This document shows positions 8,452 to 24,503 of a stretch of 25,879 nt of DNA, one piece after another. This DNA comes from a virus. Position numbers and translations under genes: made by a program. Position 1 is the stretch's first letter. Each line of letters begins with the position of its first letter. The stretch spans positions 1 through 25,879 of IMG/VR virus record IMGVR_UViG_3300047369_000786. The stretch is one strand, 5' to 3'. A model generated the notes under the pieces. It saw only the letters and a program-made list of their open reading frames with translations. It did no database searches and was not told the origin of the DNA.

Positions 8452-8802
8452 ATGGGATTAAAAGTAACAAGTAAAATATTCACAGATAATGGAGATACTA
8501 GCGAAGCGTATCTAAACATTCCTAGCATTAAATATCTTAAAGATCAATGGGTTGGTTTATCTAATAAAACTGATTCTTTAAGTATAACGGTAAATACTTA
8601 TCTTAATAGAGAAGATAGAAAAGAAGATAGTAGTAATAAAGTTAATAGTTCTTCTATAAAAAGAAATTATTCATGGGTATCTGAAACAAGTCCAAATCCA
8701 TTATCTGGACTTAAAGAAGGTGAAAGCGTATTTAAAGTAGCATATGATTTACTTAAAAATGAATTAGAAGCAGAAGGTCTATCAGTAGAAAACGATCTTT
8801 AA
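8452..8802 (+). CDS. Small hypothetical protein, probably virion-associated
   Basis: This 116-residue protein is not recognised. It starts one base after the stop of the fibre gene, so it is very likely co-transcribed with it. It is hydrophilic, has no signal peptide or membrane segment, and has a Ser/Asn/Lys-rich centre (about residues 52-70) flanked by more ordered ends. The C-terminal part (FKVAYDLLKNELEAEG) looks helical. It could be a fibre-assembly partner or a minor baseplate protein; that is only suggested by position. Its TAA shares the bases TTAA with the stop of the convergent gene on the other strand. Confidence 0.65.
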   Translation: MGLKVTSKIFTDNGDTSEAYLNIPSIKYLKDQWVGLSNKTDSLSITVNTYLNREDRKEDSSNKVNSSSIKRNYSWVSETSPNPLSGLKEGESVFKVAYDLLKNELEAEGLSVENDL

Positions 8803-8817
8803 ATAAAGTCTTCTGAT
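8781..8817. terminator. Possible weak bidirectional terminator between convergent genes
   Basis: ATCAG (8781-8785) can pair with CTGAT (8813-8817), and inside it CTTTA (8797-8801) with TAAAG (8804-8808). The structure straddles the shared stop codons of two converging genes. The stems are short and AT-rich and there is no strong T-tract, so this is only a candidate. Confidence 0.22.
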
Positions 8818-9620
8818 AATTTAAAAGGTAATATATTTTCATCTATTAGAATATCTAAAGCATTTTCTAATAAGTTAGGATCAAATCTGCTTTCGTTAGC
8901 CATCAACTTATTTAATAGAATCGTATTTTTTATAGAATCTGATATATTATCTAGGTTTAATTCATGTTCTTTACATATACAAAATAATAAATTTAAATCT
9001 GGATCTAACTTATTTAGCTCGGGGTTGTTTATTTCTTCAATAACGTTTTTTATAGGAGTCTCTTCTATATTTTCTATATCTAAAGTTTCTACTTTTGAAA
9101 ATTTGTATCCTTTAGAAAATCTTCTATCCATTTTTAATTTCCATATTTGATAAACTTGAGTTTCATTAACATTTACTAAAACATAAATAGTGTTTAATAA
9201 ATGAATCTCACTATTTACATAATATACGTTAAAGTTTTTTATGTTAAATATATCACATTGTTTTTCTAAATAGTCTATGCATAGGTTTCTAAATATCTCA
9301 TTTGCACGCTTAACGGTTTCACCTGATTCGTTATCTTTTTTATAAAAAAGAGATAGTTCATTAGATATTTCAATAATTCTATCATTTCTCCATGAAGAGT
9401 TCATTTTAAAATCAAACATGTTACCGTCTAGTACTAGATTATTTAAATTTAAATAATGAAATAATATTTCATAAAAATATTCATTGTTTCCTTCTTTTAA
9501 GGCTTGACTATATTTTTGCTCAGCCGCCAGTAATACATAGTTGAAATATTCGGAGTCTATGTAATCCTTTTTCGTAATCCACATTGGATCTAATATATTT
9601 TTCGGCTTCAAAATTAGCAC
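8799..9620 (-). CDS. Hypothetical phage protein, 273 residues
   Basis: Not recognised as a named family. The frame stays open upstream to 10004, but everything beyond about 9730 lies antisense to the next gene and the first open residues read as low-complexity Tyr/Ile text. I therefore prefer the GTG at 9620, giving MLILKPKNILDPMW; an ATG at 9584 (MWITKKDYIDSEYF) is the alternative. The protein is mixed alpha/beta, with a Leu/Asn-rich motif HYLNLNNLVLDGNMFDFKM about residues 60-80 and acidic C-terminal helices. No signal peptide or membrane segment is seen. It is a single minus-strand gene between plus-strand virion genes, converging with 8452-8802 and diverging from 9730-11886. Its role is unknown; an assembly or morphogenesis factor would fit the context, but nothing in the sequence proves it. 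Confidence 0.7.
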   Translation of the reverse strand: MLILKPKNILDPMWITKKDYIDSEYFNYVLLAAEQKYSQALKEGNNEYFYEILFHYLNLNNLVLDGNMFDFKMNSSWRNDRIIEISNELSLFYKKDNESGETVKRANEIFRNLCIDYLEKQCDIFNIKNFNVYYVNSEIHLLNTIYVLVNVNETQVYQIWKLKMDRRFSKGYKFSKVETLDIENIEETPIKNVIEEINNPELNKLDPDLNLLFCICKEHELNLDNISDSIKNTILLNKLMANESRFDPNLLENALDILIDENILPFKLSEDFI

Positions 9621-9729
9621 ATTTATTTTATATATTTTACAAAAAATAGTCTTATTGGTTCTATCATAATTAAGTATTATATAATTAAATAAATAACAGT
9701 ATAGAGTATAAACATAATACATTGCATAA
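9621..9729. promoter_or_regulatory. Divergent intergenic region with late-promoter-like motif
   Basis: This 109-base, very AT-rich gap separates two divergent genes and must hold start signals for both. On the plus strand AATAAATA at 9688-9695 (followed by AC) lies 34 bases before the ATG at 9730 and matches seven of eight bases of the T4 late promoter TATAAATA. TATAAACA near 9709 is a second partial match. No equally clear motif was found for the minus-strand gene. Confidence 0.4.
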
Positions 9730-11886
9730 ATGAACATTACTATAAAAATTATACCTGAGTCGGGTTCAAATACACTAACTTTTAGTAAAAATTTTAGAAT
9801 ATTTTCTATAGCTGATCCTATTACAGGTGTGACTGGAATATCTGACATACTAGAAGACATTGAAACCACTTCCCCTGGATCAGTTGATTTAACATATTTA
9901 AAAAGATATTTTAGGTACTCTTCTAATAATATAGATTGGTCTCTCTGGTATGGATTTTCTCCAAAAGATGTTGATCCATCTGGTTTAGATAGTATAGAAG
10001 ACATTGAAATAGATCCAGATCAATGTGTTTATATAGAAATAAAATATGAATATGATAACGGTACCTTTGAAGAATTAGATTCTCCAATAGAAATTGACGA
10101 AATAAAAATAAGAGCAAAAAGACATGACCCTGGATTACCTAATGTATTAACACCTATTGTATGTTGTACTGATGAAAAATGCCCAGCTCTAATATTTGAA
10201 AGAGAAGCAAGTTTTAGACCATATCAAGTAGATAGCGCTATTGGTATCTATAAAGAGTTAAGTTTTCACACTAATAAAATATTTGGCCATGAAGTTGTTT
10301 ATTTTAGGACTGTTCCAGAATCGGATAGCGGAGACTATATTTTTAAGGAATGGACTCTTTATAAAAATGTTGATAGGAAATGCGTAAAAATACTTGTACC
10401 TGACAACAATTTCCCAGATAATAAACCTAAGTTTTCAGAGTTTGGTATAGATTTTGAAGTTCCTTTTGAAATACATGTAGATCATAGGTATTTTCAATCT
10501 GTTTTTGGAAGCGACGCTGAACCTAGAAAAAGAGATTTTTTATATTTTCCTTTAATCAATAGAATGTTTGAAATTCAAGGTTCTTATTTACATAGAGGTT
10601 TTATGATGGAACCTAGTTTTTGGAAAATTCAACTTTATAAATTTAATCCAAACATAGATATGTTAATGAAAGACGAAAATCGTCAATTTATGGACAATAT
10701 TATAACGAGTGCAGAAGAATTATTCGCTGAGGAAGTAAAAGAAGACATACAGGATGCTAAGATGCCTGAACAATATGAAACTATATCTACTCGATACGAT
10801 ATCACTAGAGGCTCTATTCACCCTGATCTAAAAATAAAAAACATAAAGTTTAATTTTAACTTTGCATCTTTAATGGAGAATTACTATGATTTAAGTGGAA
10901 TAGAATCAACTACTAATAATTATTTTTTGACTAGCGACTCTCCTTTGATATCTACTTCTCAAGAATTAATAAATTCCGAAGGAACAGTTAATAGTAAAAA
11001 GTCATATAATGTAATTAGAGCATATCAAGATAGCTCTATTTTTAAAACTTGGCAAAATAATTCATTAATGACAAACGATAAAAACATATCTGGAATAGAC
11101 GTAAAATATTTAAGAGTTAGAGGTCCTTTTGACACCATACCTGATCACGTAGGACAATCTGAATCTGGAAGATATTTACAGCTCGAAGCATACAAAGATT
11201 TAAGTTTTACTAATCAAAGAAATATAATGGTTAGCACTGTTGATTCAAAACCAGCAGCAGTTTTAAAACTAAGAGAAACTTCTATTGTATATAATAGGCT
11301 TCCTGAATTTGGTTCAAATGGAATAGATAATTTATCATATACTTGTATGTTTAATGTTCCTGGAGATTCTGAAATAGTTAGTTTTATAAACGGCTATGAT
11401 AATGAATCTCAATCGGGTATATATTTTTATGCACAATTCAATAAGTATTTTGGAGATCAACCCGAAGGAGACTTAATACTTAATATAAAAGTAAATGATA
11501 ATTTAAGTACGTTTACTATAAGTAATTTTGAATCCGGTACATGGCACTCGGCTGTTATATCAATATCTAATGAATTTAAACAAATGGGAGTTTACTTATA
11601 TAAAACAATAGAAGACGCATCAGATTTAACTAATCACACTGATTTTAGTAAAATATTTGAAAATGTATCTTCAATGCAAGAAAAAAACTTTAAGTTAGAA
11701 CAGCCATATACCATACCTACTTCCAATTTAAAAATATCTAATATTAGGTTATTTAAAACCATGATAAAAGAGGAACAGCATGATTTCATATTGAGTCAAC
11801 AGTTCATTAAAGATGAATCTATGCTATTACTTATAGATAATTGTAGACCTCAAGTTAAAGTACCTTTTATAACAAGAAATAGATAA
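9730..11886 (+). CDS. Large baseplate/tail-fibre protein with FnIII-like and LamG-like regions
   Basis: A 718-residue soluble protein, probably a virion component. Residues about 36-130 read like a fibronectin type III-type beta sandwich (RYSSNNIDWSLWYGFSP, later YIEIKYEYDNGT and IDEIKIRAKR). A Cys cluster, CCTDEKC, follows near residue 144. Residues about 240-360 contain compact beta/aromatic text (VDHRYFQSVFG, FPLINRMFEIQGSYLHRGF) typical of phage structural proteins. From about 530 to 705 the pattern (YTCMFNVPG, IYFYAQFN, TWHSAVISIS, LKISNIRLFK) resembles a LamG/concanavalin-like jelly roll, a fold often used for glycan binding. These domain readings are by eye. An ATAAATA motif sits 34 bases upstream. 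The next gene begins 13 bases after the stop. Alternatives are a baseplate wedge arm or a short tail fibre. Confidence 0.72.
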   Translation: MNITIKIIPESGSNTLTFSKNFRIFSIADPITGVTGISDILEDIETTSPGSVDLTYLKRYFRYSSNNIDWSLWYGFSPKDVDPSGLDSIEDIEIDPDQCVYIEIKYEYDNGTFEELDSPIEIDEIKIRAKRHDPGLPNVLTPIVCCTDEKCPALIFEREASFRPYQVDSAIGIYKELSFHTNKIFGHEVVYFRTVPESDSGDYIFKEWTLYKNVDRKCVKILVPDNNFPDNKPKFSEFGIDFEVPFEIHVDHRYFQSVFGSDAEPRKRDFLYFPLINRMFEIQGSYLHRGFMMEPSFWKIQLYKFNPNIDMLMKDENRQFMDNIITSAEELFAEEVKEDIQDAKMPEQYETISTRYDITRGSIHPDLKIKNIKFNFNFASLMENYYDLSGIESTTNNYFLTSDSPLISTSQELINSEGTVNSKKSYNVIRAYQDSSIFKTWQNNSLMTNDKNISGIDVKYLRVRGPFDTIPDHVGQSESGRYLQLEAYKDLSFTNQRNIMVSTVDSKPAAVLKLRETSIVYNRLPEFGSNGIDNLSYTCMFNVPGDSEIVSFINGYDNESQSGIYFYAQFNKYFGDQPEGDLILNIKVNDNLSTFTISNFESGTWHSAVISISNEFKQMGVYLYKTIEDASDLTNHTDFSKIFENVSSMQEKNFKLEQPYTIPTSNLKISNIRLFKTMIKEEQHDFILSQQFIKDESMLLLIDNCRPQVKVPFITRNR

Positions 11887-11899
11887 ATAATAATAACAT

Positions 11900-12682
11900 A
11901 TGAATACAGATAATCAAAACATAAGAAATTCTAATACACAGGATATTTTTTTAAGAAACGCAGTTCTTGCCTTACTTGATATACTGAATAGAGAAATTAT
12001 AATAGATTTAGTTAGAGATGGCGAAATAGAGAAACATGAAATTCCTTTTTTCTATAATATGGCAGCTGACGAAGGATTCATGAAAGATTTTTTTATACAA
12101 GTACCCGATGGTTGTAAAGTTCCAGTCCTAGCTGAAGGAAATTATGATATAATCCCTAGAGGAGTTGTAACCTTAGATTCATTTCAAATAAAAACAAGTG
12201 ATATAACCAATAAATTTGTTAGAGGTAGTTTCAACCAACAGGTTTTAGACGACAATGATCAAAAGGTAAATAAAGCCTTTTCAGCAAGATTATATAGCAT
12301 GCCAATGGGTTTAAAGTTTTCAGCTAAAATATTATGTGATAACCTAAACAAAACCTTTAAGATAATGGAAAGAGTTATTGATTTGTTTTATAAAAATAGA
12401 GTAGTTTATTTTCAATATAAAGGGGTTAGAATACCTGCTCAGTTTACGTTCCCTGACACTGAAGCTTTTGAAAAAAAGTATGAATTTGATTATACAACAG
12501 ATCAACGTGTAAAAATATCTTTTAGTATAGATATGGAAACATATTTTCCTAGCTTTAATGAAGATTCTGTTTTCTATAAAGGAAACACTATAAATCAAAT
12601 TGGATTAAATACAAAATTAGAAGACACGGGTGTTAATATAAATGATGCATGGATAGACAAAGATCATCCTCCAAGTGAATAG
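11900..12682 (+). CDS. Tail sheath stabiliser/completion protein, T4 gp15-like (probable)
   Basis: A 260-residue protein whose layout resembles T4 gp15, which forms a ring capping the tail tube and sheath and joins tail to head. Seen here: an N-terminal helix with LDILNREIIIDLVRDG, a strand followed by IPFFYNMAADEGFMKDFF (about residues 48-66), a PRGVVTLDSF strand near 88, a region of small beta strands with SMPMGLKFSAKI, then a helix NKTFKIMERVIDLFYKN (about 150-166) and a final beta segment ending MDMETYFPSF-like text (IDMETYFPSF). T4 gp15 shows the same order of helix, strand, 'FMMKL'-type segment and late helix, and is of similar length (about 270). The match is remembered, not computed. 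A GATAAATA motif overlaps the upstream stop, 10 bases before the ATG. Confidence 0.6.
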   Translation: MNTDNQNIRNSNTQDIFLRNAVLALLDILNREIIIDLVRDGEIEKHEIPFFYNMAADEGFMKDFFIQVPDGCKVPVLAEGNYDIIPRGVVTLDSFQIKTSDITNKFVRGSFNQQVLDDNDQKVNKAFSARLYSMPMGLKFSAKILCDNLNKTFKIMERVIDLFYKNRVVYFQYKGVRIPAQFTFPDTEAFEKKYEFDYTTDQRVKISFSIDMETYFPSFNEDSVFYKGNTINQIGLNTKLEDTGVNINDAWIDKDHPPSE

Positions 12683-12684
12683 TT

Positions 12685-13845
12685 ATGGAAATAAGAAAGA
12701 AGTATAAAATAGATCTACCTAAAGACATTCTAATGATACGAGATGTATTCAAAAAGAATGGATATAAATTATATTTAGTAGGAGGTGCTGTGCGAGACGC
12801 AGTGTCTGGTATCAATCCAAAGGATTACGATTTAGCTACAGACGCGCTTCCAGATAAAGTTAATGAAATGTTATTTCCTATCTATAAAATGTTACCTATA
12901 GGGGAACAATTTGGAATATGGCTAGCTATAACCCCAAGCGGAGAATTTGAAATAGCAACTTTTAGAGAAGACGTTGGAACAGGAAGAAGACCAGATGACG
13001 TAACTTTCACAACCATAGAAAATGATGTTAAAAGAAGAGACTTAACAATAAATGCTCTATTTTACGATATTGATACTGAAGAAATAGTAGATCTAGTTGG
13101 GGGAATAGAAGATTTAAAAAATGGAGTAGTTAAAACAGTTGGCGATCCCAAAGATCGTTTTTCAGATGATAAATTAAGAAAGCTCAGAGCCATACGTTTC
13201 GCCGGTGTTACGGGATCTGAATTAGATAAAGCCATACATGACTACTTACTAAAAGATCCTAATTTAGATGGAATATCATCTGAAAGAATTAGAGATGAAT
13301 TTCTAAAGGGTATTGCTAAATCTTCATCAGTTGTATACTTTATGAATCTATTAGATAAATATAATTTTTTTCAATATATTTTTCCAAATCTAAACACGAA
13401 TGCTAATTATATAGAAGAAAAAGACTACATAGTAAACCTCGCTACGCTTCTTAAAGAAAATGATTCGATTGAACTTAGAAACGCTTTAAATAAAGCAACG
13501 TATTCCAACGAGGAAATAAAAAATATTTTATTTTTAAAATCCCTTCTTCATTTAAATGAAAATAACGTATTAGATATAAAAAAGTCTCAATACAATACTT
13601 CTGTAAACAATGATCAGATACTAAAATTTTCAAAACTAAATGGGTTAGATGAAAAACTAATAAGTACTTTTATTCAATATATACCTAGTGTCAGTGGTAA
13701 AGATGTTATGGATAAGATGAACATTAAAGGTGGACCTGAAGTTGGCAAATATATAAACCAAATGGAAGTAGACATATTTAAAAATTTAATGTCAAATGAA
13801 TCTTACCGTTTTAAATACATAAAAGAATTTATAAATTATGAATAA
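12685..13845 (+). CDS. cca: CCA-adding enzyme / poly(A) polymerase family nucleotidyltransferase
   Basis: A 386-residue class II (bacterial-type) nucleotidyltransferase. Visible motifs in order: LVGGAVRD (31-38), the metal-binding pair DYD (47-49) in PKDYDLAT, a strand EFEIATFRED (87-96), the flexible-loop text TGRRPDDVTFTT, RRDLTINA (117-124), GDPKDRFSDDKLRKLRAIRFA (from 153) and the helix SERIRDEFLKGI (199-210). These cover the catalytic head and neck of the family; the C-terminal 170 residues are helical and diverged, and I see no HD domain. The enzyme should add CCA (or A) to RNA 3' ends in the cytoplasm, for example repairing host or phage tRNA ends; CCA addition and polyadenylation cannot be told apart from sequence alone. 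It starts two bases after the gp15-like gene and its end overlaps the next gene by 8 bases, so it is expressed with virion genes. No tRNA gene lies in this window. Confidence 0.88.
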   Translation: MEIRKKYKIDLPKDILMIRDVFKKNGYKLYLVGGAVRDAVSGINPKDYDLATDALPDKVNEMLFPIYKMLPIGEQFGIWLAITPSGEFEIATFREDVGTGRRPDDVTFTTIENDVKRRDLTINALFYDIDTEEIVDLVGGIEDLKNGVVKTVGDPKDRFSDDKLRKLRAIRFAGVTGSELDKAIHDYLLKDPNLDGISSERIRDEFLKGIAKSSSVVYFMNLLDKYNFFQYIFPNLNTNANYIEEKDYIVNLATLLKENDSIELRNALNKATYSNEEIKNILFLKSLLHLNENNVLDIKKSQYNTSVNNDQILKFSKLNGLDEKLISTFIQYIPSVSGKDVMDKMNIKGGPEVGKYINQMEVDIFKNLMSNESYRFKYIKEFINYE

Positions 13846-14287
13846 TCAACACATAAAAATATACGAAAATTTTGATATAAACGATGATAGTTATACTGAA
13901 GTAATTGATAATAACGTATATCAAAGAGTAAGCTTGTATAATTCACCCAAAGAAACTAGTCAATGGGGAGACGCAATAGATAGCGATTCTGAAATAGAGC
14001 TAAATAAAGTAATAGTTAAATTTAATTTAGATATAGAATATAAACGCAGTGGAATAGAAGACATTACTTTTAGATTAATTTCAATAGCGTTAGATGGAGC
14101 TATAATAGATTATGAAGGCAATGAAATAGAAAGCTTCGATATTGTAGATGATGATATAACATATGAAAAATATGAAACACAAATGGGAACTTTTCCACTA
14201 TATTTAGGAGATATAGAAATAAACATGAACAAAACCTTTGACACAAGCAAATGGAAATATGAAATAGCAATAGGTAACTTTAGATAA
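13838..14287 (+). CDS. Hypothetical protein, 149 residues
   Basis: Not recognised. The ATG lies inside the last codons of the nucleotidyltransferase gene (8-base overlap, ATGAATAA), a sign of translational coupling. The protein is acidic, rich in Asp, Glu, Ile and Tyr, without membrane segments. It opens with a short IKIYENFD segment and continues with alternating hydrophobic residues suggesting beta strands (KVIVKFNLDIEYK, ITFRLISIALDGAII). It sits between a gp15-like and a tail-tube-like gene, so a small virion or assembly protein is possible; no function can be assigned. Confidence 0.68.
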   Translation: MNNQHIKIYENFDINDDSYTEVIDNNVYQRVSLYNSPKETSQWGDAIDSDSEIELNKVIVKFNLDIEYKRSGIEDITFRLISIALDGAIIDYEGNEIESFDIVDDDITYEKYETQMGTFPLYLGDIEINMNKTFDTSKWKYEIAIGNFR

Positions 14288-14289
14288 TT

Positions 14290-14838
14290 ATGATTTTAAA
14301 TGTAAGAAATAACAGTTTTGTATTTTTATTCCCTGAGAATTTTTTTACTGCTTCAATAAAAGAAAAGTATAAGGATTATTATCAGAGTTTAATACTTCCA
14401 TATGACACTATAGATGATTTTATGTCATCTACGGTTCAACAAATAGATTTTCCAGCCTGGAATATGACAACGGCTGAGCAAACTAGACCATTGGGTAAGC
14501 AACAAGACTATAAGAGCTCTAAACCTCTTAAAGAATTGTTTAATCGGGAAATTACGCTTACTATGAAAATATCTGACGCATATTTAAACTATTTTATTTT
14601 TCTAGAAAATTCATTAGAATTCTTAGATTTTTCAAATAAGAAACAAACGCTTTCCCCTATTAGATTAATGATGTTGAATAACGAAGGATATTCGGTATCT
14701 TCTATAATATTCAATAGGCCAATACTTACTTCTCAAACCGGTATAAAGTTATCATACAGTTCAGTTACTCCTCAATTAAATACGTTTGATATAAAATTTA
14801 AATATTTTGATTTTGATTTAAAAGTTGATTTTAGTTAG
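14290..14838 (+). CDS. Tail tube-like protein (T4 gp19/gp54 fold candidate)
   Basis: A 182-residue protein starting two bases after the preceding stop. After an N-terminal strand (NSFVFLFPENFF) comes a helix ending near FMSSTVQQIDFPAWNM, then a basic loop (GKQQDYKSSKPLKELF), a strand FNREITLTMKI, a helix DAYLNYFIFLENSLEFLDF, a strand pair (SPIRLMMLNNEGY and SVSSIIFNRP) and final strands LNTFDIKFKYFDFDL. This order, an aromatic-ending last strand and the length are like tail tube proteins of contractile tails (T4 gp19 is 163 residues), where subunits stack as hexamers; tube initiators such as gp54 share the fold. The family call is from fold-pattern memory. Its position near the gp15-like gene supports a tail-tube role. 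The gene ends overlapping a convergent gene by 8 bases. Confidence 0.5.
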   Translation: MILNVRNNSFVFLFPENFFTASIKEKYKDYYQSLILPYDTIDDFMSSTVQQIDFPAWNMTTAEQTRPLGKQQDYKSSKPLKELFNREITLTMKISDAYLNYFIFLENSLEFLDFSNKKQTLSPIRLMMLNNEGYSVSSIIFNRPILTSQTGIKLSYSSVTPQLNTFDIKFKYFDFDLKVDFS

Positions 14839-14846
14839 GTTCAACT
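14823..14846. terminator. Possible weak bidirectional terminator
   Basis: AGTTGA (14823-14828) and TCAACT (14841-14846) form a perfect 6-bp inverted repeat with a 12-base loop exactly over the overlapping stop codons of two convergent genes. T-rich sequence follows on the plus strand (CTTTCCTTTT) and TTT follows on the minus strand. The stem has only two G-C pairs, so strength is doubtful. Confidence 0.3.
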
Positions 14847-15316
14847 CTTTCCTTTTGTATAGTATATAATTTATTAAGTGTTAATAAATGAAACATGCAT
14901 ATGGCTACTATAGCTATTATTTCAGCAAATAATAAACTAAACGGAATCACTGGAATAGCTGATAAATATATCCATTTACAAAAGTCATATTTATTAGCCA
15001 TGTATAGTGGATATATGCAAACTACAAAGAAAGCTACAGCTATTATATTATGTATACTGGGATAGTATTCAATAGAAAATGCAGTTACAAGTAATAGTAA
15101 ACACGAAGACAGTCTCCATTTAGGTATTCCTATTAAGTAATATCCTGTTATTAAATTAGATATAATAAACAAAGGTTGCATATTGGTATTCCAATAAGAA
15201 GATAAAGATTTTTCGTATCCTGAAAAAAACAAACATATAAAAGGAGAAATGGTTGCAAAAACAATCACACACACTCTTAATAAGTAGTCAAATTTAGTTA
15301 TGCTTCCGTTAATCAT
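14831..15316 (-). CDS. Multi-pass membrane protein
   Basis: A 161-residue protein made mostly of hydrophobic helices: about residues 11-31, 47-64, 69-83, 89-105 and 115-146 (the last long enough for one or two passes). The tail (NKLYTIQKERVEPN) is polar. A single His lies in YYPSIHNIIA at the start of one helix. There is no cleavable signal peptide pattern, so it should sit in the host inner membrane. It is the last gene of the minus-strand fibre cassette and has a perfect TATAAATA 51 bases upstream. Possible roles are a holin-like or superinfection-exclusion protein, or a host-derived membrane protein; it has more passes than a usual holin, and none of these is proven. Its stop overlaps the convergent tail-tube-like gene. 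Confidence 0.72.
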   Translation of the reverse strand: MINGSITKFDYLLRVCVIVFATISPFICLFFSGYEKSLSSYWNTNMQPLFIISNLITGYYLIGIPKWRLSSCLLLLVTAFSIEYYPSIHNIIAVAFFVVCIYPLYMANKYDFCKWIYLSAIPVIPFSLLFAEIIAIVAICMFHLLTLNKLYTIQKERVEPN

Positions 15317-15367
15317 ATAGCGCTTTCATAATGTTAAAAAATGTTTTTATAGAGAATTCTATAATTT

Positions 15368-15375
15368 TATTTATA
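15368..15375 (-). promoter_or_regulatory. TATAAATA late-promoter-like motif
   Basis: Minus-strand TATAAATA followed by AAAT, an exact match to the T4 late promoter -10 element. It lies 51 bases upstream of the membrane-protein ATG (15316), in the 95-base gap after the long fibre gene. Confidence 0.5.
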
Positions 15376-15411
15376 CAACACAGAATTTATAAAAAGAGTA
15401 ACCTGGTTTAT

Positions 15412-18135
15412 TTAAGCAAAAAACTGCACCGCTGGCATTTCACTTATAGTTCCATCTTGCTGCGTAGCCGTTGCTGGAAAAGACCCTCCACTAACCACTT
15501 CGGTTCCTTCAAACCATGCTACTGAAAGAGTATCTGGACATTCTATACCGTATGGCTTAGAAACAGTTGAGTCTAATGAAACTGCTAATACTACATCTTC
15601 TCCTCCTGTAAATGATAGACTTTGTCCTGTCTCAGCTGTCATTGTGTATGACTGTACATCGTTTGGGGTGGTTACTTGATTACTCTGTCCTACTAATACT
15701 GCTGTTGGGCCTGATCCTCTATATATTGCACAACATGTAATACCACTTCCAGAAGTTGAAAATGCCATTTTAGCAGTGGCAACTGTTATGTCAGCAGGTA
15801 TCGTATAGTTTATAAAAAATATTTGACCCGTACCTGGATAAGTTATCTCTTTTCCTTGCCATATTTCTATTCCTATTGTTGATATTGAACCCCTGTTGTT
15901 TTCCCAGCTGGCGTTACCTTGAGAATCTGACGTAAGAATTTTACCGTTTCCTTCTGTTCCATCTTCTAACCTTAAAGAATAATTGTTAGATCCTCCTTGA
16001 ACTGAAATTTTCATCCCAACATTAAGGGTAGAATTTGTATTTATAGCAATATTTCCACCTAACACGCTTGTTAAAGAAGCGCCACCTGTACTTACTAACT
16101 CAGTTTCAGCACCTATCATATTAGTTGCAGTAGGTCCTGGATTAATATAAATCCTAGACCCAGTGTTACTTAAGCTGTCTCCGTTAATAGTAGTAAGCGA
16201 TCCAAATATAGCCGCTGCATTTGTATCGTTTAATTCTGTTTGTATTCCGTATATCTTTGGTAAACTTCCACTTGTTACGTGAGCACCATTTGATTTAATT
16301 ACTGAACCTGATTTACTAGATACATTAGTAGCACTATTCATAATTATCCAGTTCCCAGCACTTTTCGATTTATTATTAGCATCATTTTGTATACAATTAA
16401 CTAAGCCTATATCAGAATTGGTAGCACTTGCGGATCCATATAATCCAATTTTAACACCATACATCGATGTAGCACTGGTTCCACTAGAAGATACGTTTAA
16501 ACCTACGCTATTTGCAGTGCTCAACGTAGACGTTTGACTTAGTTGCATGCTTGTGTCTAAACCGGTGTTATCTATATTGAAATGAACCTGACTAGATAAA
16601 CTGCCTATTCCTATTGTTGATCCATCGTCTAATAAACTTCCTAATTCTAGATTGTTACTTGCATCTTCTCTTAAAGTGGTGTTTGCAGTTCCTCCTGTAA
16701 TACTATCTCCTATTGTAAGACTTCCTCCCGCTGGTATAGATTGAGTTGATAGAATACCAGCGGCACTTGCCACTACCATTCTAGTTCCAGTTCCAGATAA
16801 GTTTGCCATTTCTATATTACTATCTTCGTCTATTACTAACCCGGTACTTGTTGCTCCTAAAGCATCCGTACTAAGAAATTGAATTTTTCCTCCGTTTTCT
16901 TTATTAGCTATTATAAAATTATCGTTAACGGTACTTCCATATCCAATATATCCTTTTTCACTAGTATTATCATAAAAGTCTATGAAATTTTTACCTAATG
17001 CGCTTACTGTCTCTAATCTAAGTATAGCTGAATCCCCTTTTATATGAACTTCTTGCTGAGGTGTATTTGTTCCAATACCTAATCTGTTTAAAGTATCATC
17101 ATATGCAAAATTAGCATTGTCTTGTCGTAGTTCTCCCATCAGTCCTATAAATAATACGGATTTAGATGTTCCAAGTCCTACGGTATTACCTATAGATAAT
17201 ACATCAGATACCGGTTTCCATTCTCCAGTTCCATTCATATCAACTGATCTCCATATATGGCCTTGTGTTCCACTGGTTTTTCTAAATTTCATGTCTCCAG
17301 CAAAACTATTAATAACAGATGCGTCTAATTGATTTATACCATAGAATTCTCCTGTTCCTTTTGTAATATTTCCTATTTCTCCTAGATATAGTTGATTATA
17401 ATTATCAACTGTTACGTCAGGCGTTGTTAATGTGACATCTCTTAACCTTATTCCATATACGTCAGGTAGTGTTCTTATATTACCGCTATATCCTATTTCT
17501 AAATCTACTCCTAATATTGTTCCAGTGTGATCAACTTTAGATTCAACTTCCGCATTATATCCTACTAACATAGCTGACCCTGAACTAGGCCCTGTAACGC
17601 CTCTAAAAATAACTCCACCTCCAACTGAATCTCCTTGAATAACTACGTCATTTCCAGCAGCTTCTACCTTAAACATGTTATTTGTATTAATAGCAGTTCC
17701 TATTGCCATATGAATTCCATCAAATAACAATCCTCCGTATGTAAAATCAGTACCCCCTGAGTTTACTCTAGGTATTTCATTTTGATTTCCTATAGTCACT
17801 CCACCTCCGGTTGATCCATTTGATGCAAGTGTTATTCTACCTTGAGAATCAATGGTTATATTGGCATTTGTATATGATCCTGGAGTCACAGAGGTATTTG
17901 CTAAGTCTATTGTTCCTGAACCGGTAATAATTCCTCCGTTCAAGCCAACTCCTGCAGTTATTGATGTTACAGTACCTCCACCCGCTAGTGATTGCCAGGA
18001 TATGTTTCCTGCTCCATCTGTTACTAAAGCTTGACCTAAAATTCCGTCAGCCATAGGTAAAGTAAACGCTCCATTTCCAATAGTTAGCTCATCTACCGAT
18101 AGGTTTATGTATTTTCTAGTAATTTTTGGTGGCAT
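15412..18135 (-). CDS. Long tail fibre protein, 907 residues
   Basis: A Gly/Ser/Thr/Asn-rich fibre. The N-terminal region has the text common in phage fibres: ILGQALVTDGAGNISWQSL (about 31-50), then Gly-rich turns and TVTSITAGVGLNGG, and ANITIDSQGRITLAS. Near 351 comes LGIGTNTPQQEVHIKGD, a motif frequent in repeat-built fibres and often found upstream of S74 domains, though no S74 domain is present here. GKILTSDSQGNASWEN near 735-750 echoes the N-terminal TDGAGNISW motif. Residues about 753-907 form a distinct C-terminal head (IEIWQGKEITYPGTGQIFF, ITCCAIYRG, DVVLAVSLD), the most likely receptor-binding part. Base composition is visibly richer in G+C than the flanking baseplate genes. A GATAAATA motif lies 21 bases upstream. 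Confidence 0.82.
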   Translation of the reverse strand: MPPKITRKYINLSVDELTIGNGAFTLPMADGILGQALVTDGAGNISWQSLAGGGTVTSITAGVGLNGGIITGSGTIDLANTSVTPGSYTNANITIDSQGRITLASNGSTGGGVTIGNQNEIPRVNSGGTDFTYGGLLFDGIHMAIGTAINTNNMFKVEAAGNDVVIQGDSVGGGVIFRGVTGPSSGSAMLVGYNAEVESKVDHTGTILGVDLEIGYSGNIRTLPDVYGIRLRDVTLTTPDVTVDNYNQLYLGEIGNITKGTGEFYGINQLDASVINSFAGDMKFRKTSGTQGHIWRSVDMNGTGEWKPVSDVLSIGNTVGLGTSKSVLFIGLMGELRQDNANFAYDDTLNRLGIGTNTPQQEVHIKGDSAILRLETVSALGKNFIDFYDNTSEKGYIGYGSTVNDNFIIANKENGGKIQFLSTDALGATSTGLVIDEDSNIEMANLSGTGTRMVVASAAGILSTQSIPAGGSLTIGDSITGGTANTTLREDASNNLELGSLLDDGSTIGIGSLSSQVHFNIDNTGLDTSMQLSQTSTLSTANSVGLNVSSSGTSATSMYGVKIGLYGSASATNSDIGLVNCIQNDANNKSKSAGNWIIMNSATNVSSKSGSVIKSNGAHVTSGSLPKIYGIQTELNDTNAAAIFGSLTTINGDSLSNTGSRIYINPGPTATNMIGAETELVSTGGASLTSVLGGNIAINTNSTLNVGMKISVQGGSNNYSLRLEDGTEGNGKILTSDSQGNASWENNRGSISTIGIEIWQGKEITYPGTGQIFFINYTIPADITVATAKMAFSTSGSGITCCAIYRGSGPTAVLVGQSNQVTTPNDVQSYTMTAETGQSLSFTGGEDVVLAVSLDSTVSKPYGIECPDTLSVAWFEGTEVVSGGSFPATATQQDGTISEMPAVQFFA

Positions 18136-18156
18136 ATATGTAAGATTTATTTAGTT

Positions 18157-18164
18157 TATTTATC
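18157..18164 (-). promoter_or_regulatory. GATAAATA late-promoter-like motif
   Basis: Minus-strand GATAAATA followed by AAC, 21 bases upstream of the ATG of the 907-residue fibre and within the 70-base gap between the two fibre genes. It differs from the T4 late element only at the first base. Confidence 0.45.
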
Positions 18165-18205
18165 TAAAATAAAAGCCAATTCTTTAAAGGGTTTGGTATA
18201 TCTTT

Positions 18206-20158
18206 CTAAACTATCACTGCTTTAACGTTTCCAACAGGATTAATTAGAAATGTAATATCAACCGTTGTGGTTGTTGCATTACTTATTTCTGTAGTTATTA
18301 CTTTTCCTGATGTAGCATCCCATAGTTGAACTATGATATCAGATGTTCCTAAATTATGAGTAATTGTATTAGCAGATCCTGCGATACCTGGTGTAAATGT
18401 TACAACTGCCTTACCATTTGTTATGGTAGATTTTACCCATTCTTTTGTAACGTATACATTATCTGGTTCAGTATCTATAGCAATTGTTGAGTCTCCTGGA
18501 TTCCATACATTTGTTATATCAGTCCATAATAAATGATTTCCATAAGTAGTATTTCCTTGATTTAAAGTATATGAAAGACTCGTCGATGTTAATTCAAACT
18601 CACCAGTAGGTCCTTGATTATATGTTCCGCCATTTATAAAAGCACCGTTTACTATTATTAGCCTTCCATCGTTATTTACGGTAATTCCAGGGAGTATTTC
18701 CATATCTCCCCATACAATATACATTGCGTTTTCAGGTATATTTAAATCAGACGTAATAGTGTGATATATTCCAAATCCACTTGAAGAAGCTCCACCTGCT
18801 GATACTACAACTACTCTTACGCTTGCTAAGTCTTGAGTAAATGTTAAATCTATTGAATCTGTGGTATAATTATCTATATCGCCATCTATTCTGTCTCCTG
18901 TGACAGTGTCTATTAAATCTACAACTACTCCGTTTGTACCTAATCCATGTGTTATTGTTTTTGTTACATTAGCGATAAAGTTTGTTGTTTCTACATATGA
19001 TGCATTTCCTGCGCCTCCTCCACAACATGGATAAGTTTTTTCATACTCCAGAGATACCATGACCTCTTCATTAAAACCTCCTGTGCTACTTCCTGCCGTA
19101 ACAGTACCTTTTACTACAAGAACGTCTCCTTCGTTAACGTCTATATCTAATCCACTTGTTTCTAAAAGAAAATAATTTCCATCAACGTTAGCTGTATTTA
19201 ATGTTAATATATTAGAACCTCCTGTTAAATCAACATAGTTCGTATCATCAGCTACTCCGTTTGGATCAATTAATTTACCAATACTCACTTCGTAATTGAA
19301 TAGAGCATCTACGCTTGCTGCCGTTGTGTCTAAATATTTTAGAGTTATGCTTTTAATCTTTAAGTCAAATTGAATAGGTAAAACTGAATTATGCGTACCT
19401 GTAGGACTTAAAACTCCAGCCCAGTCTACGTATTCAGGAACAGCCCCGGCTGCAAAATTGGTAATTAGACCCCATAGCATGTCTTTGGTAGTCATGGTAC
19501 TTCCTCCACCACCACCGCCATTACAGCATGTTAGTCTAAATATTTCTCCATTCTCATCTGTAAAGTATAAATCCTGCGTAGTTGGGGTATATGTAGTTGC
19601 AAGACCTGGGTCTCCGATCCACACTATACCTGATCCTGTAGATGGAGTTGGTGGTATACCGGGGCTACCGGTATTCTGTAATAACGTAAGAGCATATAAC
19701 GCACCTCCATTATCGGTTAAACTTACCCATCCTTTTCCATCTAAGTATCCTATAAAATCTTCCCCGAACTCAGGTCTTTGGTTTTGAATACCGGTATAAA
19801 TAATCTCTCCAGGTATTCCTACATTTGGCCAGTTATTAAAATCAGTATGTCTATATCTCTTAGCTTCTGCTACTTCTACTAAAAATGAATTACCTTCAGC
19901 TCTACCTTGGGAGTCTATATTAAATGTAGTTACTCCATTTAAGCTTACGCTAAGGTTGTTATCTACATTAATCTGTTTTACATTAATGTTATTTATGCCT
20001 TCTATGGCGTTAGTCGTTTCATTATAAGAAACGTTATTCAAAAACTCAAGTAAAGCAAGTGACAGGTCATTGAAATTGAGGTTAGATACCTCTATAATTG
20101 AACCTAAGCTTGAATTAGTTAATCTTCTTATATTTGAAAGTTTGGAATATATAGCCAT
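18206..20158 (-). CDS. Tail fibre protein with duplicated beta domain, 650 residues
   Basis: A fibre or fibre-tip protein. The N-terminal 40 residues include EVSNLNFNDLSLALLEFL, similar in pattern to the N-terminus of the 4632-8450 fibre (KVNFNFNKLLELG), which may be a common baseplate-docking helix. Two Cys-Cys/Gly linkers, CCNGGGGGGS near 211 and CCGGGAGN near 378, separate globular parts. A domain of about 55-60 residues occurs twice: TKTITHGLGTNGVVVDLID to about 451, starting near 396, and ANTITHNLGTSDIIVQLWD from about 593 to the C-terminus. Both share T-I-T-H-x-L-G-T, a V/I-rich strand, an Asp-rich turn and a V-x-V-x-V ending. This His-x-Leu-Gly domain is common in phage fibres. GC is higher than in neighbouring baseplate genes. 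AATAAATA lies 22 bases upstream. Confidence 0.82.
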   Translation of the reverse strand: MAIYSKLSNIRRLTNSSLGSIIEVSNLNFNDLSLALLEFLNNVSYNETTNAIEGINNINVKQINVDNNLSVSLNGVTTFNIDSQGRAEGNSFLVEVAEAKRYRHTDFNNWPNVGIPGEIIYTGIQNQRPEFGEDFIGYLDGKGWVSLTDNGGALYALTLLQNTGSPGIPPTPSTGSGIVWIGDPGLATTYTPTTQDLYFTDENGEIFRLTCCNGGGGGGSTMTTKDMLWGLITNFAAGAVPEYVDWAGVLSPTGTHNSVLPIQFDLKIKSITLKYLDTTAASVDALFNYEVSIGKLIDPNGVADDTNYVDLTGGSNILTLNTANVDGNYFLLETSGLDIDVNEGDVLVVKGTVTAGSSTGGFNEEVMVSLEYEKTYPCCGGGAGNASYVETTNFIANVTKTITHGLGTNGVVVDLIDTVTGDRIDGDIDNYTTDSIDLTFTQDLASVRVVVVSAGGASSSGFGIYHTITSDLNIPENAMYIVWGDMEILPGITVNNDGRLIIVNGAFINGGTYNQGPTGEFELTSTSLSYTLNQGNTTYGNHLLWTDITNVWNPGDSTIAIDTEPDNVYVTKEWVKSTITNGKAVVTFTPGIAGSANTITHNLGTSDIIVQLWDATSGKVITTEISNATTTTVDITFLINPVGNVKAVIV

Positions 20159-20180
20159 TTATCAGTCCTACTATTTTTTT

Positions 20181-20188
20181 TATTTATT
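20181..20188 (-). promoter_or_regulatory. AATAAATA late-promoter-like motif
   Basis: Minus-strand AATAAATA preceded by AG and followed by a run of A, 22 bases upstream of the ATG of the 650-residue fibre. It fits the same ATAAATAA pattern as the other start-proximal motifs. Confidence 0.42.
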
Positions 20189-20201
20189 CTAAAAAACATG
20201 G

Positions 20202-21530
20202 CTAATTATTACGAGACTTGTTTATTAGTTCGGTTTTATCGTCTATCTTAGATTCTTGAGAAAAGTTACCATCGAAAACCACACAATTTTTTAGATCAGC
20301 ATTTATTATATCATCTAAATTACTGTATATAGATGATGACGCTATCTCATTTAAATGTCCTCCATATTTACAATCAAATATTTTAGAATATTTTATATCA
20401 TTATTAGAGTGTAAATTACTTTCTTTTATATTAGAATTTCTAATAACGCACTGTTCAAATAGACAGTTTTCTAAATCTGCTTCTATACGACAGTTAAAGA
20501 AGTCCATTTCTGATAGAGAAAAGCCTTTTTTAATTCTGGCATCTTTTACTTGTACTCTTTTCCTAGCTGTATCGAAATTTATAACAGCCTTATTCATTTC
20601 ACAGCATGAGATTAATTCAAATAACTTATTTCTAATAACAGGGTAGTTAGACTCTATTAAAAAAGAATGTCTAGTTAAGTCAACTAAGAGATGTATATCT
20701 GGATAACTATGTTTAAAGGTATCGTATGTTTTAGTATTATCGATTATCCTTTGATATCTTTCAAGTAATTTTTGTATTTTTCTTTTTTCATCTACATTAA
20801 ATGAAAAATTATTTTTTAAAGTTTCATATAAATGCTCAGCTGTATAATTTATCAATTCAACTGATTCTTTTTTCTTTCTTTGATAATTCTTACCTCCAGC
20901 GTATTTAACCGATAGGTATCCATCCTGTATGTTAGAAAAATCGGTTCCGAAATTTGAAGATTTAGGAAAATTATATTCCATTGGATTCGCTTTTTCAAGT
21001 AAAGATCCTGTTAATCTACTTGCGTATAATTCTTTAGGATACACAAAAATCGCCTTACTCTGATGTATCTTTTGTTTTTCAGAAGAAGATTCTGGCCACA
21101 TTTTAAATATATTTCTTTCATTTATATTTAAAATATATTTAAACTTATTAAGAGTTTCAAGTCTATCTTTTAATCCTAGATCCATTTCATTTAATGAAAC
21201 TTTTATATTCATATTAGATCTACTATTTGTAAACCCATTTTCATTTATGAAATTCATACACTTTAACATGATATGAATACCTTCATGATATGGCATTAAA
21301 TCAGTATCTATTCTATTCATTTTATGTCCACCTTCGAAATCAGGAGATACATAAATCGCTTCGTCAACGAATTTTATTTTTGATTTATTAGCTAGCGGTA
21401 TTACATTTTTTCCTAAATATCTGCTTAATTTAGAAGATATTTTTTTCCTAGATAAAGGAGAAAAAAACTGAAAGGTAAATCCTATATTAGTATTATCAAA
21501 AAGAAACTTATTTTCTATATTATTATACAC
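20202..21530 (-). CDS. Amidoligase-like protein with C-terminal pentapeptide-like repeats
   Basis: A 442-residue protein starting at GTG (21530); a promoter-like GATAAATA 16 bases upstream supports this start. Residues 17-115 have the outline of phage proteins related to the amidoligase (ATP-grasp-like carboxylate-amine ligase) family: GFTFQFFSP (17-25), PDFEGGHKM (63-71), LMPYHEG (78-84) and NMNIKVSLNEMD (106-117). In the versions I recall, the first motif reads E-x-E and the last H-I-N-x-S; here the Glu and His positions are Thr/Gln and Asn, so catalysis may be lost. The middle is helical and Lys-rich (about 215-265). Residues about 338-423 read as pentapeptide-like repeats (FNCRIEADLENCLFEQC), suggesting a right-handed beta helix. 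It could modify or bind a virion or cell-wall component, or be a structural derivative. The family assignment is tentative. Confidence 0.5.
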   Translation of the reverse strand: MYNNIENKFLFDNTNIGFTFQFFSPLSRKKISSKLSRYLGKNVIPLANKSKIKFVDEAIYVSPDFEGGHKMNRIDTDLMPYHEGIHIMLKCMNFINENGFTNSRSNMNIKVSLNEMDLGLKDRLETLNKFKYILNINERNIFKMWPESSSEKQKIHQSKAIFVYPKELYASRLTGSLLEKANPMEYNFPKSSNFGTDFSNIQDGYLSVKYAGGKNYQRKKKESVELINYTAEHLYETLKNNFSFNVDEKRKIQKLLERYQRIIDNTKTYDTFKHSYPDIHLLVDLTRHSFLIESNYPVIRNKLFELISCCEMNKAVINFDTARKRVQVKDARIKKGFSLSEMDFFNCRIEADLENCLFEQCVIRNSNIKESNLHSNNDIKYSKIFDCKYGGHLNEIASSSIYSNLDDIINADLKNCVVFDGNFSQESKIDDKTELINKSRNN

Positions 21531-21546
21531 GAGTAATGTTTTTTAT

Positions 21547-21554
21547 TATTTATC
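21547..21554 (-). promoter_or_regulatory. GATAAATA late-promoter-like motif
   Basis: Minus-strand GATAAATA, preceded by AG and followed by ATAAAA, 16 bases upstream of the GTG start at 21530. It supports that start over any internal ATG. Confidence 0.42.
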
Positions 21555-21576
21555 CTATTCTCGTGAAAACTTTTTA

Positions 21577-21801
21577 CTAATTAACTATTTGAATAGACAC
21601 TTCGTCCTTATGTATCCATACTTCTTTTCCTGCCATAAATGCTGTTTCATCTAAATGATCATATAAATACGTTTTTGTAGGATATTTAGCCAGCTGATAA
21701 ACACCTATTTCGTATCTCCAAGCAAATTGAAATTCTTTTTTTACTATTAAGTCCGGTAAGGTGTCTAATTTATTGTTGTAATCTTTTATTATAACTTTCA
21801 T
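21577..21801 (-). CDS. Small hypothetical protein, 74 residues
   Basis: Not recognised. The product is soluble, with an N-terminal strand-like MKVIIKDYNN, aromatic residues FQFAWRYEIGVYQLAKY in the centre and a Lys/Asp-rich end. It is the first gene of the minus-strand cassette, 46 bases before the amidoligase-like gene, and diverges from the gp6-like gene across a 65-base gap. No ATAAATAA motif is seen in front of it on the minus strand, so it may be expressed from a different type of promoter. Confidence 0.6.
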   Translation of the reverse strand: MKVIIKDYNNKLDTLPDLIVKKEFQFAWRYEIGVYQLAKYPTKTYLYDHLDETAFMAGKEVWIHKDEVSIQIVN

Positions 21802-21841
21802 ACTTTAAAACTTTTATATATTATACTAAATAAAAATCAAA

Positions 21842-21849
21842 GATAAATA
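21842..21849 (+). promoter_or_regulatory. GATAAATA late-promoter-like motif
   Basis: Plus-strand GATAAATA followed by nine A residues, 17 bases upstream of the ATG of the gp6-like baseplate gene, in the divergent gap 21802-21866. It would drive the baseplate-terminase block to the right. Confidence 0.48.
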
Positions 21850-21866
21850 AAAAAAAATACACTTGA

Positions 21867-23528
21867 ATGGCTACAACAGCTTCGAATTGGAAAATATTTA
21901 AATCATTAGATTATTCTGTACAGTTAATGCTAAAGCAAACGATAGGATATCTGTCTACTAAATTTAATCAAAGTTTACAAGTATTTACAGCAGCTAGTCC
22001 ATTTGGACAACTTTTATTAGTTTTAGAAAACCTTAGTCAAATGATTTTCTACTATATAGAAGACTCTATAACTGAATTAAGCATGGAAGAAGCCACCAGA
22101 GTGTCTTCAATATATTCATTATCTACTTTAGCTGGTCATAGTCCAAGTAGAGCAATATCAGCTGGTGGTCAAATAGCTTTATCAACTACATCAAATTCAG
22201 CAACGGCTGATTTTGATACTATATTAATTCCAAACTTAACAAAATTAAAATCTAAAAATAATGGGTTAAATTATGTGATAAGCTTATCACAAGATGATAT
22301 AAAATTTTCAATGAAAGGAAGCACTAACGGAACCTCTATGAAAATACTTCAAGGAAACATAGAAACACAGACCCTAGTGGCTAAAGGAGTAGAGATTGAA
22401 AGTTTTTCTATAAATTCAGCTCAAAACTTTTTAGTTGATAATTATTTAGTTGAAGTCTATGTCAATGGAGAAAAATGGAAACGATTTAATTCAATATTAG
22501 ACATACCCAGAGGTGAAAAGGGTTACATTATAAAAACTGGAATCACAACAGGAGTTGATGTATTCTTTGGAAATGATTTTTTTGGAAAAGTACCAGTTGA
22601 AGGATCGGAGATAAAGGTTCAGTATTTAGTAAATAGCGGTGCTTCTGGAAACATTACAACCGAACAGGTTTCACAAGTCTTGTTTGAATGGGCCGATACT
22701 GGTTTTACTTTAACTGGAAAAGAAATAGATTTAAATGAATACGTTAAAATAGATACATTACATTCTCCACAATTTGGAGCTAACCCAGAGGATTCAGAAT
22801 TGACTCGATTACTTGCTCCAAAACAATCTAAAAGTTTTGCTTTAGTTAACATAGATCATTACATAGCTGTTTTAACTAGGCTTAAGATATTTTCTATCAT
22901 AAATGTTTTTTTAGATGAAAATGACAATAGAATGTTGAATTTATTTTTAGTTCCGGATATTAATAATCTATTTAATACAGGTCAAGATTATTTTAATGTA
23001 GATCCTTCTAAGTTTAAGTTAACTGAATTTAGAAAAAATGAAATATTGAGATATCTAAATATGACAGGTTCAAAGCTAATTTCAACAGACACTAAAATAG
23101 TAGACCCTACTATTACAAAATATGTAATTAATATAAATACAATCGTTTTCGATGATGTAGCCACTGAAGTAATAAAGAGAGACATATATAATAATCTAGG
23201 AAATTATTTTATATCTAACAAGAGACGAACTAGAATACCTAAAAGTGACTTAATAAAAATATTAGAGGAAGTAAATGGAATAGATTCAGTAAATGTTAAT
23301 GTAGTGTCTGAAAATAATGAAATAGCAGTTATAGAAGACCCTAACTCTCAACTAGTTGGATTAGATGAATTTAATGATATAATAATAAAAGATTATGAGC
23401 TTCCTATTATACAAGGAGGGTTTAAAGACAGATATGGAAATGAATATTCACAAGGTATTTCTGAACAAGCGTTAGGCTCAGTAAATATACAAATTAAAAA
23501 AATAGTGCCTAGGCCATTTGATAACTAA
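21867..23528 (+). CDS. Baseplate wedge protein, T4 gp6 / baseplate-J family
   Basis: A 553-residue baseplate wedge protein (T4 gp6 is 660). Hallmarks of the baseplate-J family are visible: a helical N-terminus, then SLSTLAGHSPSRAISAGGQIAL (about 86-107; the usual A-x-x-x-G-x-x-P-x-x-A-x-x-A-x-G pattern), a central VNSGASGNI near 255, and GANPEDSELTRLLAPK near 304-319, matching the G-x-x-x-E-x-x-x-x-x-R-x-P segment of the family. The C-terminal half has repeated alpha/beta modules (INTIVFDDVATEVIKRDIYN) like the domains that form the inner ring of the wedge. It would act in the ring around the tail tube that triggers sheath contraction. It begins 66 bases from the divergent minus-strand gene, and its stop overlaps the next ATG (TAATG). 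Confidence 0.85.
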   Translation: MATTASNWKIFKSLDYSVQLMLKQTIGYLSTKFNQSLQVFTAASPFGQLLLVLENLSQMIFYYIEDSITELSMEEATRVSSIYSLSTLAGHSPSRAISAGGQIALSTTSNSATADFDTILIPNLTKLKSKNNGLNYVISLSQDDIKFSMKGSTNGTSMKILQGNIETQTLVAKGVEIESFSINSAQNFLVDNYLVEVYVNGEKWKRFNSILDIPRGEKGYIIKTGITTGVDVFFGNDFFGKVPVEGSEIKVQYLVNSGASGNITTEQVSQVLFEWADTGFTLTGKEIDLNEYVKIDTLHSPQFGANPEDSELTRLLAPKQSKSFALVNIDHYIAVLTRLKIFSIINVFLDENDNRMLNLFLVPDINNLFNTGQDYFNVDPSKFKLTEFRKNEILRYLNMTGSKLISTDTKIVDPTITKYVININTIVFDDVATEVIKRDIYNNLGNYFISNKRRTRIPKSDLIKILEEVNGIDSVNVNVVSENNEIAVIEDPNSQLVGLDEFNDIIIKDYELPIIQGGFKDRYGNEYSQGISEQALGSVNIQIKKIVPRPFDN

Positions 23529-23790: not shown

Positions 23791-24498
23791 ATGCTTAAAG
23801 ATAAAGATAATAGAAAGGCTTTAAAAAGCGAGATAGAAAGTCTATTAAGTGGAATAAATCACGATGAACATAATGAATTAAATGTAGATTCAGAATTACA
23901 TGAAGAAACTAAACCCGAAAGTCCTTATGATTTCGATGAAATGACACGTGAGTTTAATAAAAAAGCTAAAGATATAACCGATTCATTATTTGAATATTAT
24001 GTAGAATTAGGTATTTTAGAAGAAAACAATTATATAAAATTAAAAAAAGAAATGGACACAGTTAATATGTCTAATATTTTTTTTCAAATAAAAACTTTAA
24101 AAATTACCATAACTAAAATAATGGAGGAGATAACAACAGGTAATACTGCTCCTAGGTTAATGGAAGTATTCGGACAATTACAAGATAAATTAAAAACACT
24201 TGTTCAAACTCAAGCTAATCATATGTTATTTTTAGAAGAAACTTATAAAAATATAAACAATGATGATCCTAAGAACGGAAATAACACTTTAAATAATTCA
24301 AATCAAGAAGGGGAGTTTTTCATATCGGTTGGAACAAAAACAATGGTAGAAAGTTTACCTGAAAATTCTCAAGAATATGAAATAGATGATAGTCTAATAA
24401 ACCCGTCTAATAAAACTGAATTAATGAAAGAAAACAACATAAAAATAGAAGAAGACGATACGGATTCTGATTTTATAGACGTCACTGAAATAATTTAA
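23791..24498 (+). CDS. Probable small terminase subunit (T4 gp16-like position)
   Basis: A 235-residue acidic protein directly upstream (5 bases) of the large terminase. The central part, about residues 50-155, is nearly all helical (FDEMTREFNKKAKDITDSLF, then IFFQIKTLKITITKIMEEI and LMEVFGQLQDKLKTLVQTQ), compatible with the coiled-coil hairpin core of gp16-type small terminases that oligomerise into a ring and regulate the motor. The tail from about 160 is Asn/Asp/Glu-rich and probably disordered. T4 gp16 is 164 residues, so this one carries longer acidic ends. No helix-turn-helix is obvious. The call rests mainly on position and helical pattern. Confidence 0.62.
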   Translation: MLKDKDNRKALKSEIESLLSGINHDEHNELNVDSELHEETKPESPYDFDEMTREFNKKAKDITDSLFEYYVELGILEENNYIKLKKEMDTVNMSNIFFQIKTLKITITKIMEEITTGNTAPRLMEVFGQLQDKLKTLVQTQANHMLFLEETYKNINNDDPKNGNNTLNNSNQEGEFFISVGTKTMVESLPENSQEYEIDDSLINPSNKTELMKENNIKIEEDDTDSDFIDVTEII

Positions 24499-24503
24499 AG
24501 CCT

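Follow-up and report, generated by a model that had tools for sequence, protein, structure and literature searches.

Candidate T4-type late promoters before virion genes of a phage related to Bacteroidota-infecting jumbo phages

The stretch of viral DNA analyzed here (25,879 nucleotides, hereafter the window) carries seven copies of the sequence DATAAATAA that very probably are T4-type late promoters of the form RATAAATAA, read by a gp55-like sigma factor. All seven copies claimed in an earlier note on this DNA were confirmed at the reported places, the minus-strand positions given there falling inside the intervals below, and each is oriented in the direction of the gene that it precedes. The candidate boxes and the genes behind them are as follows.

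9688..9696, plus strand: candidate late box AATAAATAA, 33 nt to ATG 9730; in 4/5 orthologues
9730..11886, plus strand: putative late gene, homologue of the PTm1 gp292 "neck protein" (via orthologues)
11882..11890, plus strand: candidate late box GATAAATAA, 9 nt to ATG 11900; shares bases with the upstream stop codon
11900..12682, plus strand: putative late gene, T4 gp15-like tail sheath stabiliser (PF16724)
15367..15375, minus strand: candidate late box TATAAATAA, 50 nt to ATG 15316; in 2/3 orthologues, spacing 48-49 nt
Gene 14831, ATG 15316, minus strand: 161-aa membrane-type protein, behind box 15367..15375
18156..18164, minus strand: candidate late box GATAAATAA, 20 nt to ATG 18135; in 6/6 orthologues
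15412..18135, minus strand: putative late gene, large presumptive fibre-type protein with repeats, 907 aa
20180..20188, minus strand: candidate late box AATAAATAA, 21 nt to ATG 20158; in 32/32 orthologues
18206..20158, minus strand: putative late gene, large presumptive fibre-type protein, 650 aa
21546..21554, minus strand: candidate late box GATAAATAA, 15 nt to GTG 21530; in 27/34 orthologues
20202..21530, minus strand: putative late gene, conserved, no function assigned, GTG start 21530
21842..21850, plus strand: candidate late box GATAAATAA, 16 nt to ATG 21867; in 47/47 non-redundant orthologues
21867..23528, plus strand: putative late gene, gp6-like baseplate wedge, heading a gene run that extends to the terminase
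21819..21830, minus strand: TTTAGTATAATA, promoter-like but distinct from the late box, preceding the 74-aa gene 21577-21801

Measured from the end of the box, the start codon follows after 33, 9, 50, 20, 21, 15 and 16 nt, which matches the earlier description of 10-51 bases with five copies within 10-22, and it is likewise true that four successive minus-strand genes (14831, 15412, 18206 and 20202) each have their own copy. The fifth minus-strand gene, 21577-21801, is without the core octamer ATAAATAA and has a different conserved box instead: TTTAGTATAATA is conserved across its aligned orthologues, and ATAAATAA is found in 0/8 of them. As side observations on this region, a gene for a CCA-adding tRNA nucleotidyltransferase (12685-13845, plus strand) lies within the run of virion genes, and the minus-strand ORF at 8799-10004 is a genuine conserved gene whose last 276 residues are 82% identical to G002, the nearest large relative (105 kb and collinear with the window), although in its long form it extends into the beginning of the 9730 gene.

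Counted over the whole window and both strands, ATAAATAA occurs 11 times, against a shuffle expectation of 11.6. This is chance level, as might be expected if the boxes were simply a product of AT-rich intergenic DNA. The enrichment is positional and is not one of total count: within -60 to -1 of the start codon, the octamer is present on the sense strand of 7/16 genes and on the antisense strand of 1/16. The earlier note would have given up its reading had there been no enrichment near starts over shuffled sequence; the enrichment is present, the 7/16 comparing with a mean of 0.72 and a maximum of 5 in 20,000 dinucleotide shuffles of those upstream 60-mers. Upstream, ATAAATAA also ranks first among 28 octamers of the same composition and first among all 8-mers in the window. 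The upstream shuffles, the conservation in orthologues, and the top rank of the octamer in relatives at 42% GC refute an origin by chance, which retains next to no probability.

Among confirmed viral stretches, 112 contain a relative of the gp6-like wedge; further ones are encoded by metagenomic huge phages of 462-735 kb, by Sphingomonas phage PAU, and by named phages that infect Prevotella (Lak), Tenacibaculum, Flavobacterium, and Chryseobacterium. The named hosts are mostly Bacteroidota, and from them a host of this kind may be presumed for the window's phage. When over-represented upstream 8-mers were ranked de novo, using a simple gene caller and supplying no motif, ATAAATAA came out on top in twelve related contigs with a GC content of 0.30-0.42 (G001, G002, G004 to G010, G012, G014, and G015), and likewise in G013; in G003, a 20-kb piece, it ranked ninth. 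Of the 82 copies in G010, 57 lie upstream of a gene. The same procedure applied to T4 as a control returned TATAAATA. The corresponding variants elsewhere are GATAAATA in Flavobacterium phage MaF61, ATATATAA in LR756500, ATACATAA in the Tenacibaculum phage PTm1, where it ranks behind the host-type TATATTTG, and, with TAG read as sense, AATAAATA in Lak-A1, the difference lying mainly at -9. The variant divides virion from replication genes in Lak-A1 (p 0.0025), G013 (0.00025), LR756500 (0.029), and PTm1 (0.005), with too few genes in MaF61 (p 0.25); these p values are descriptive only because the variants were chosen from the same genomes.

In the window's clade, the box has the consensus RATAAATAA, with A or G favoured at -13 (the base preceding ATAAATAA is A in 0.49, G in 0.36, T in 0.14, and C in 0.01) and an extra A at -5. 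Positions -12 to -6 are the same as in the T4 late promoter TATAAATA, which functions with gp55, gp33, and gp45 (PMC2988020, PMC7892883), whereas T4 has a T at -13. A box-anchored alignment revealed no conservation upstream, and therefore no -35 element; an A-rich patch follows 3-5 nt past the box, the downstream sequence is A/T-rich, and the spacing to the start codon peaks at 15-24 nt. Thus, an 8-bp -10-like box without a -35 element, AT-rich downstream sequence, and occurrence on both strands and before virion genes are all shared with T4. The earlier comparison with the T4 sequence stands as to promoter type but needs refinement to RATAAATAA, which is nearer to the cyanophage late promoter NATAAATA of S-PM2 and Syn9 (PMC2984593) than to TATAAATA. 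The cyanophages have the same core, a relaxed first base, and a gp55 homologue, but they infect cyanobacteria and reportedly retain homologues of both gp33 and gp45. The -7 box of the Bacteroidota sigma-A promoter, TAnnTTTG (PMC9723704), is unlike the late box in sequence and was not found at the seven sites, all of which are DATAAATAA; boxes of this host type are apparently used by these phages for other genes.

Scored at the level of operons, the box precedes 82/104 virion genes and 2/33 genes of replication and nucleotide metabolism, a difference for which the p value of 3e-14 overstates the evidence because orthologues are not independent. It is rare before genes tightly packed in operons (2/142, 2/117, and 0/55) and frequent at divergent starts (23/42 and 6/6), as promoters should be and unlike ribosome-binding signals. 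This distribution bears on the possibility that the box is a translation-initiation signal, in which an A-rich leader replaces the Shine-Dalgarno sequence in Bacteroidota. The box does lie near start codons at a preferred spacing, and Shine-Dalgarno sequences are missing in Bacteroidota (PMC6847099). However, operon-internal genes, which are also translated, and replication genes have almost no boxes before them, and the box outranks all permutations of the same composition, making a role in translation initiation very unlikely.

The late-promoter reading is also supported by the conservation of individual sites, as seen when orthologues, which are not independent of one another and come from a simple gene caller, were aligned by protein N terminus. 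The box is retained in 47/47 orthologues at the gp6-like gene, 32/32 at 20158, 27/34 at 21530, and 6/6 at 18135 (the last three on the minus strand), and in 4/5 at 9730, 2/3 at 15316 (minus), and 2/7 at 11900, the last figure being low partly because of misanchored starts. Among its five orthologues, the 9688 box was not found in G002, the closest relative. At 21546..21554, the nearest orthologues still have GTG as the start codon and 15 nt as the spacing. Box-free control genes gave 0/54, 5/54, 4/20, 0/8, 0/3, and 0/2 orthologues with a box; a further control gene, 4632, gave 2/5, but at a distance of 87-92 nt.

The window fragment stops short of the gp55-like locus, which by its position in the clade would lie about 10 kb to the left (24366-24779 in G002), and the evidence on the sigma factor comes from relatives only. 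PHROG 234, the family of T4 gp55, matches proteins in G002, G007, G010, G011, G012, and G013 (4e-20 to 1e-11) and in LR756500 and Lak-A1; the matches in MaF61 and PTm1 are weak. A homologue is present in every relative of at least 141 kb and in the 105-kb G002; it was not detected in nine contigs, all of them fragments of at most 128 kb. A profile of six gp55-like proteins had gp55 in 7d7c as its first PDB match (E 2e-7), and an AlphaFold2 model (pLDDT 72) found its best fold match in 7d7c_F (rank 1, probability 1.00, rmsd 1.9 A over 103 columns). In T4 gp55, A-12 is held by Y97 and A-8 by T99, with a shallow A-9 pocket formed by N13 and H95 (PMC7892883). The Y97 and T99 pockets are retained in the homologues, T99 being conserved in all aligned gp55-like proteins and Y97 in all except that of PTm1 (Phe), and H95 is replaced by Phe in every non-T4 member of the alignment. 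In MaF61, the gp55-like protein (54739-55476, minus strand) has an insertion of >100 aa inside the region-2 core.

De novo enrichment, site conservation, specificity for virion genes, lack of a -35 element, and the gp55 fold match, all of them computational observations, support the reading as T4 late promoters served by a gp55-type sigma factor that the earlier note had put forward. The gp55-like sigma-region-2 protein on host RNA polymerase would recognise each box (R-13 A T A A A T A A-5) in the melted non-template strand as a self-sufficient -10-like element. Transcription would then start about 5 nt past the last A, and virion genes on both strands would be expressed late in infection.

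RATAAATAA without a -35 element fits gp55 best, although with at least two other sigma factors in the genomes the gp55-like protein is not proved to be the reader. ECF-like and RpoD-like sigmas are also encoded in the relatives, and three or more sigma-type genes per phage were counted in G001, G005, G007, G008, G010, and LR756500. An ECF-like sigma directly follows the terminase and, judged by synteny, would be located about 1 kb past the right end of the window. Conceivably, the boxes are late promoters read by another phage sigma such as this one: a Sigma70_r2 protein occurs in all 15 contigs searched, one of about 210-220 aa was seen just past the terminase in those inspected there, and the gp55-like protein is missing from the nine fragments of at most 128 kb. 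ECF sigmas, however, contain region 4 and use -35 elements, which are not present at the boxes, whereas the gp55-like protein is without region 4, its counterpart in T4 recognises an almost identical box, and box and gp55 co-vary between clades. We therefore regard another sigma as an improbable reader and the gp55-like protein as the likely one.

Between clades, A persists at -12 and -8, and variation within the core falls mainly on -9. Where the residue after T99 is Gln, 103 loci have A at -9 and 3 have T; where it is Glu, 124 have T and 20 have A. Repeated evolution was rejected as an account of this correlation, since the gp55 tree requires a single switch and therefore one event, which could be a clade effect.

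A search for gp55 together with gp33 and gp45, as the earlier note had proposed, succeeded for the first in relatives and failed to detect the other two. For the co-activator gp33, no credible PHROG 254 match was found outside T4, and gp33 is known to diverge strongly; for the gp45 sliding clamp, sequence searches with T4 gp45 or PF02916 gave no match outside T4. Clamp-loader homologues are present in the relatives. At 132-147 aa, the gp55-like proteins are shorter than T4 gp55 and differ from it at the C-terminal end: the alignment ends before the T4 C-terminal part, and in place of a T4-type clamp-binding tail, which was not found, they have a conserved [IV]Y[ST]I-type end. T4 gp43 and gp33 share the C-terminal tail of gp55. 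A search for proteins sharing the gp55-like tail gave a single good match, a homing endonuclease of LR756500; DNA polymerases are without this tail. The gene for this endonuclease (231551-233164, minus strand) directly follows that for the gp55-like protein and ends in the same residues, NAEIYSI.

Spacing in the window's clade is bimodal, with a second group at 4-7 nt besides that at 15-24 nt and few boxes at 8-14 nt. In this clade, 49/272 sites (about 18%) lie at most 8 nt from the start, mostly at 4-7 nt; the class at 4-7 nt comprises 16/59 sites in G013, 0/131 in Lak-A1, and 0/20 in T4, from which the present phages differ in this respect. The earlier note considered the copy at 11882 the weakest. 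Its short gap and its overlap with a stop codon are real, but it belongs to this second class, which recurs at the gp15-like gene in several relatives (6 nt to the start in G002, 4 in G010, and 5 in G012 and G014; 15 in G006). Mis-called start codons were rejected as the source of the short spacing, alternative downstream ATGs being no commoner than background, and overlap with upstream stop codons accounts for only 14/49 sites; the class remains among boxes that are clear of any upstream gene end. If the T4 start geometry is applied to these boxes, leaderless late mRNAs with leaders of 0-3 nt would be predicted. In Flavobacterium psychrophilum, 5.5% of mRNAs are leaderless (PMC9723704).

More tentatively, jumbo and mega-phages related to those that infect Bacteroidota, Lak among them, may generally use gp55-type late transcription, with the box drifting chiefly at -9 in parallel with gp55 (A with Gln and T with Glu by the T99 pocket), with about a fifth of late promoters in the window's clade placed 4-7 nt from the ATG and yielding leaderless mRNAs, and with a sigma factor that functions though neither gp33 nor a T4-type clamp tail is recognisable; we consider this wider picture possible rather than probable. 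No description of late promoters in these phages was found in the open-access papers searched. On the main reading, a textbook mechanism of an E. coli phage would extend to giant phages with named relatives that infect Bacteroidota, providing a transcription programme for jumbo phages of a large group, most of it uncultured, in which late and non-late genes could be sorted from sequence alone. The natural series of sigma factors and promoters (A, T, or C at -9), combined with the solved gp55 structure, makes specificity directly testable, and one may ask by what means gp55 functions if gp33 and gp45 are missing or cannot be recognised.

Other boxes were seen in the relatives. GTATAAT-type boxes lie upstream of topoisomerase, DNA polymerase, SSB, and gp55 genes, and G001, G008, PTm1, and Lak-A1 have boxes of host type (TATATTTA, TATATTTG, and TATCTTTG) preceded by a T-run. 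The resemblance of the host-type boxes to the Bacteroidota sigma-A promoter suggests a separate class of host-read genes.
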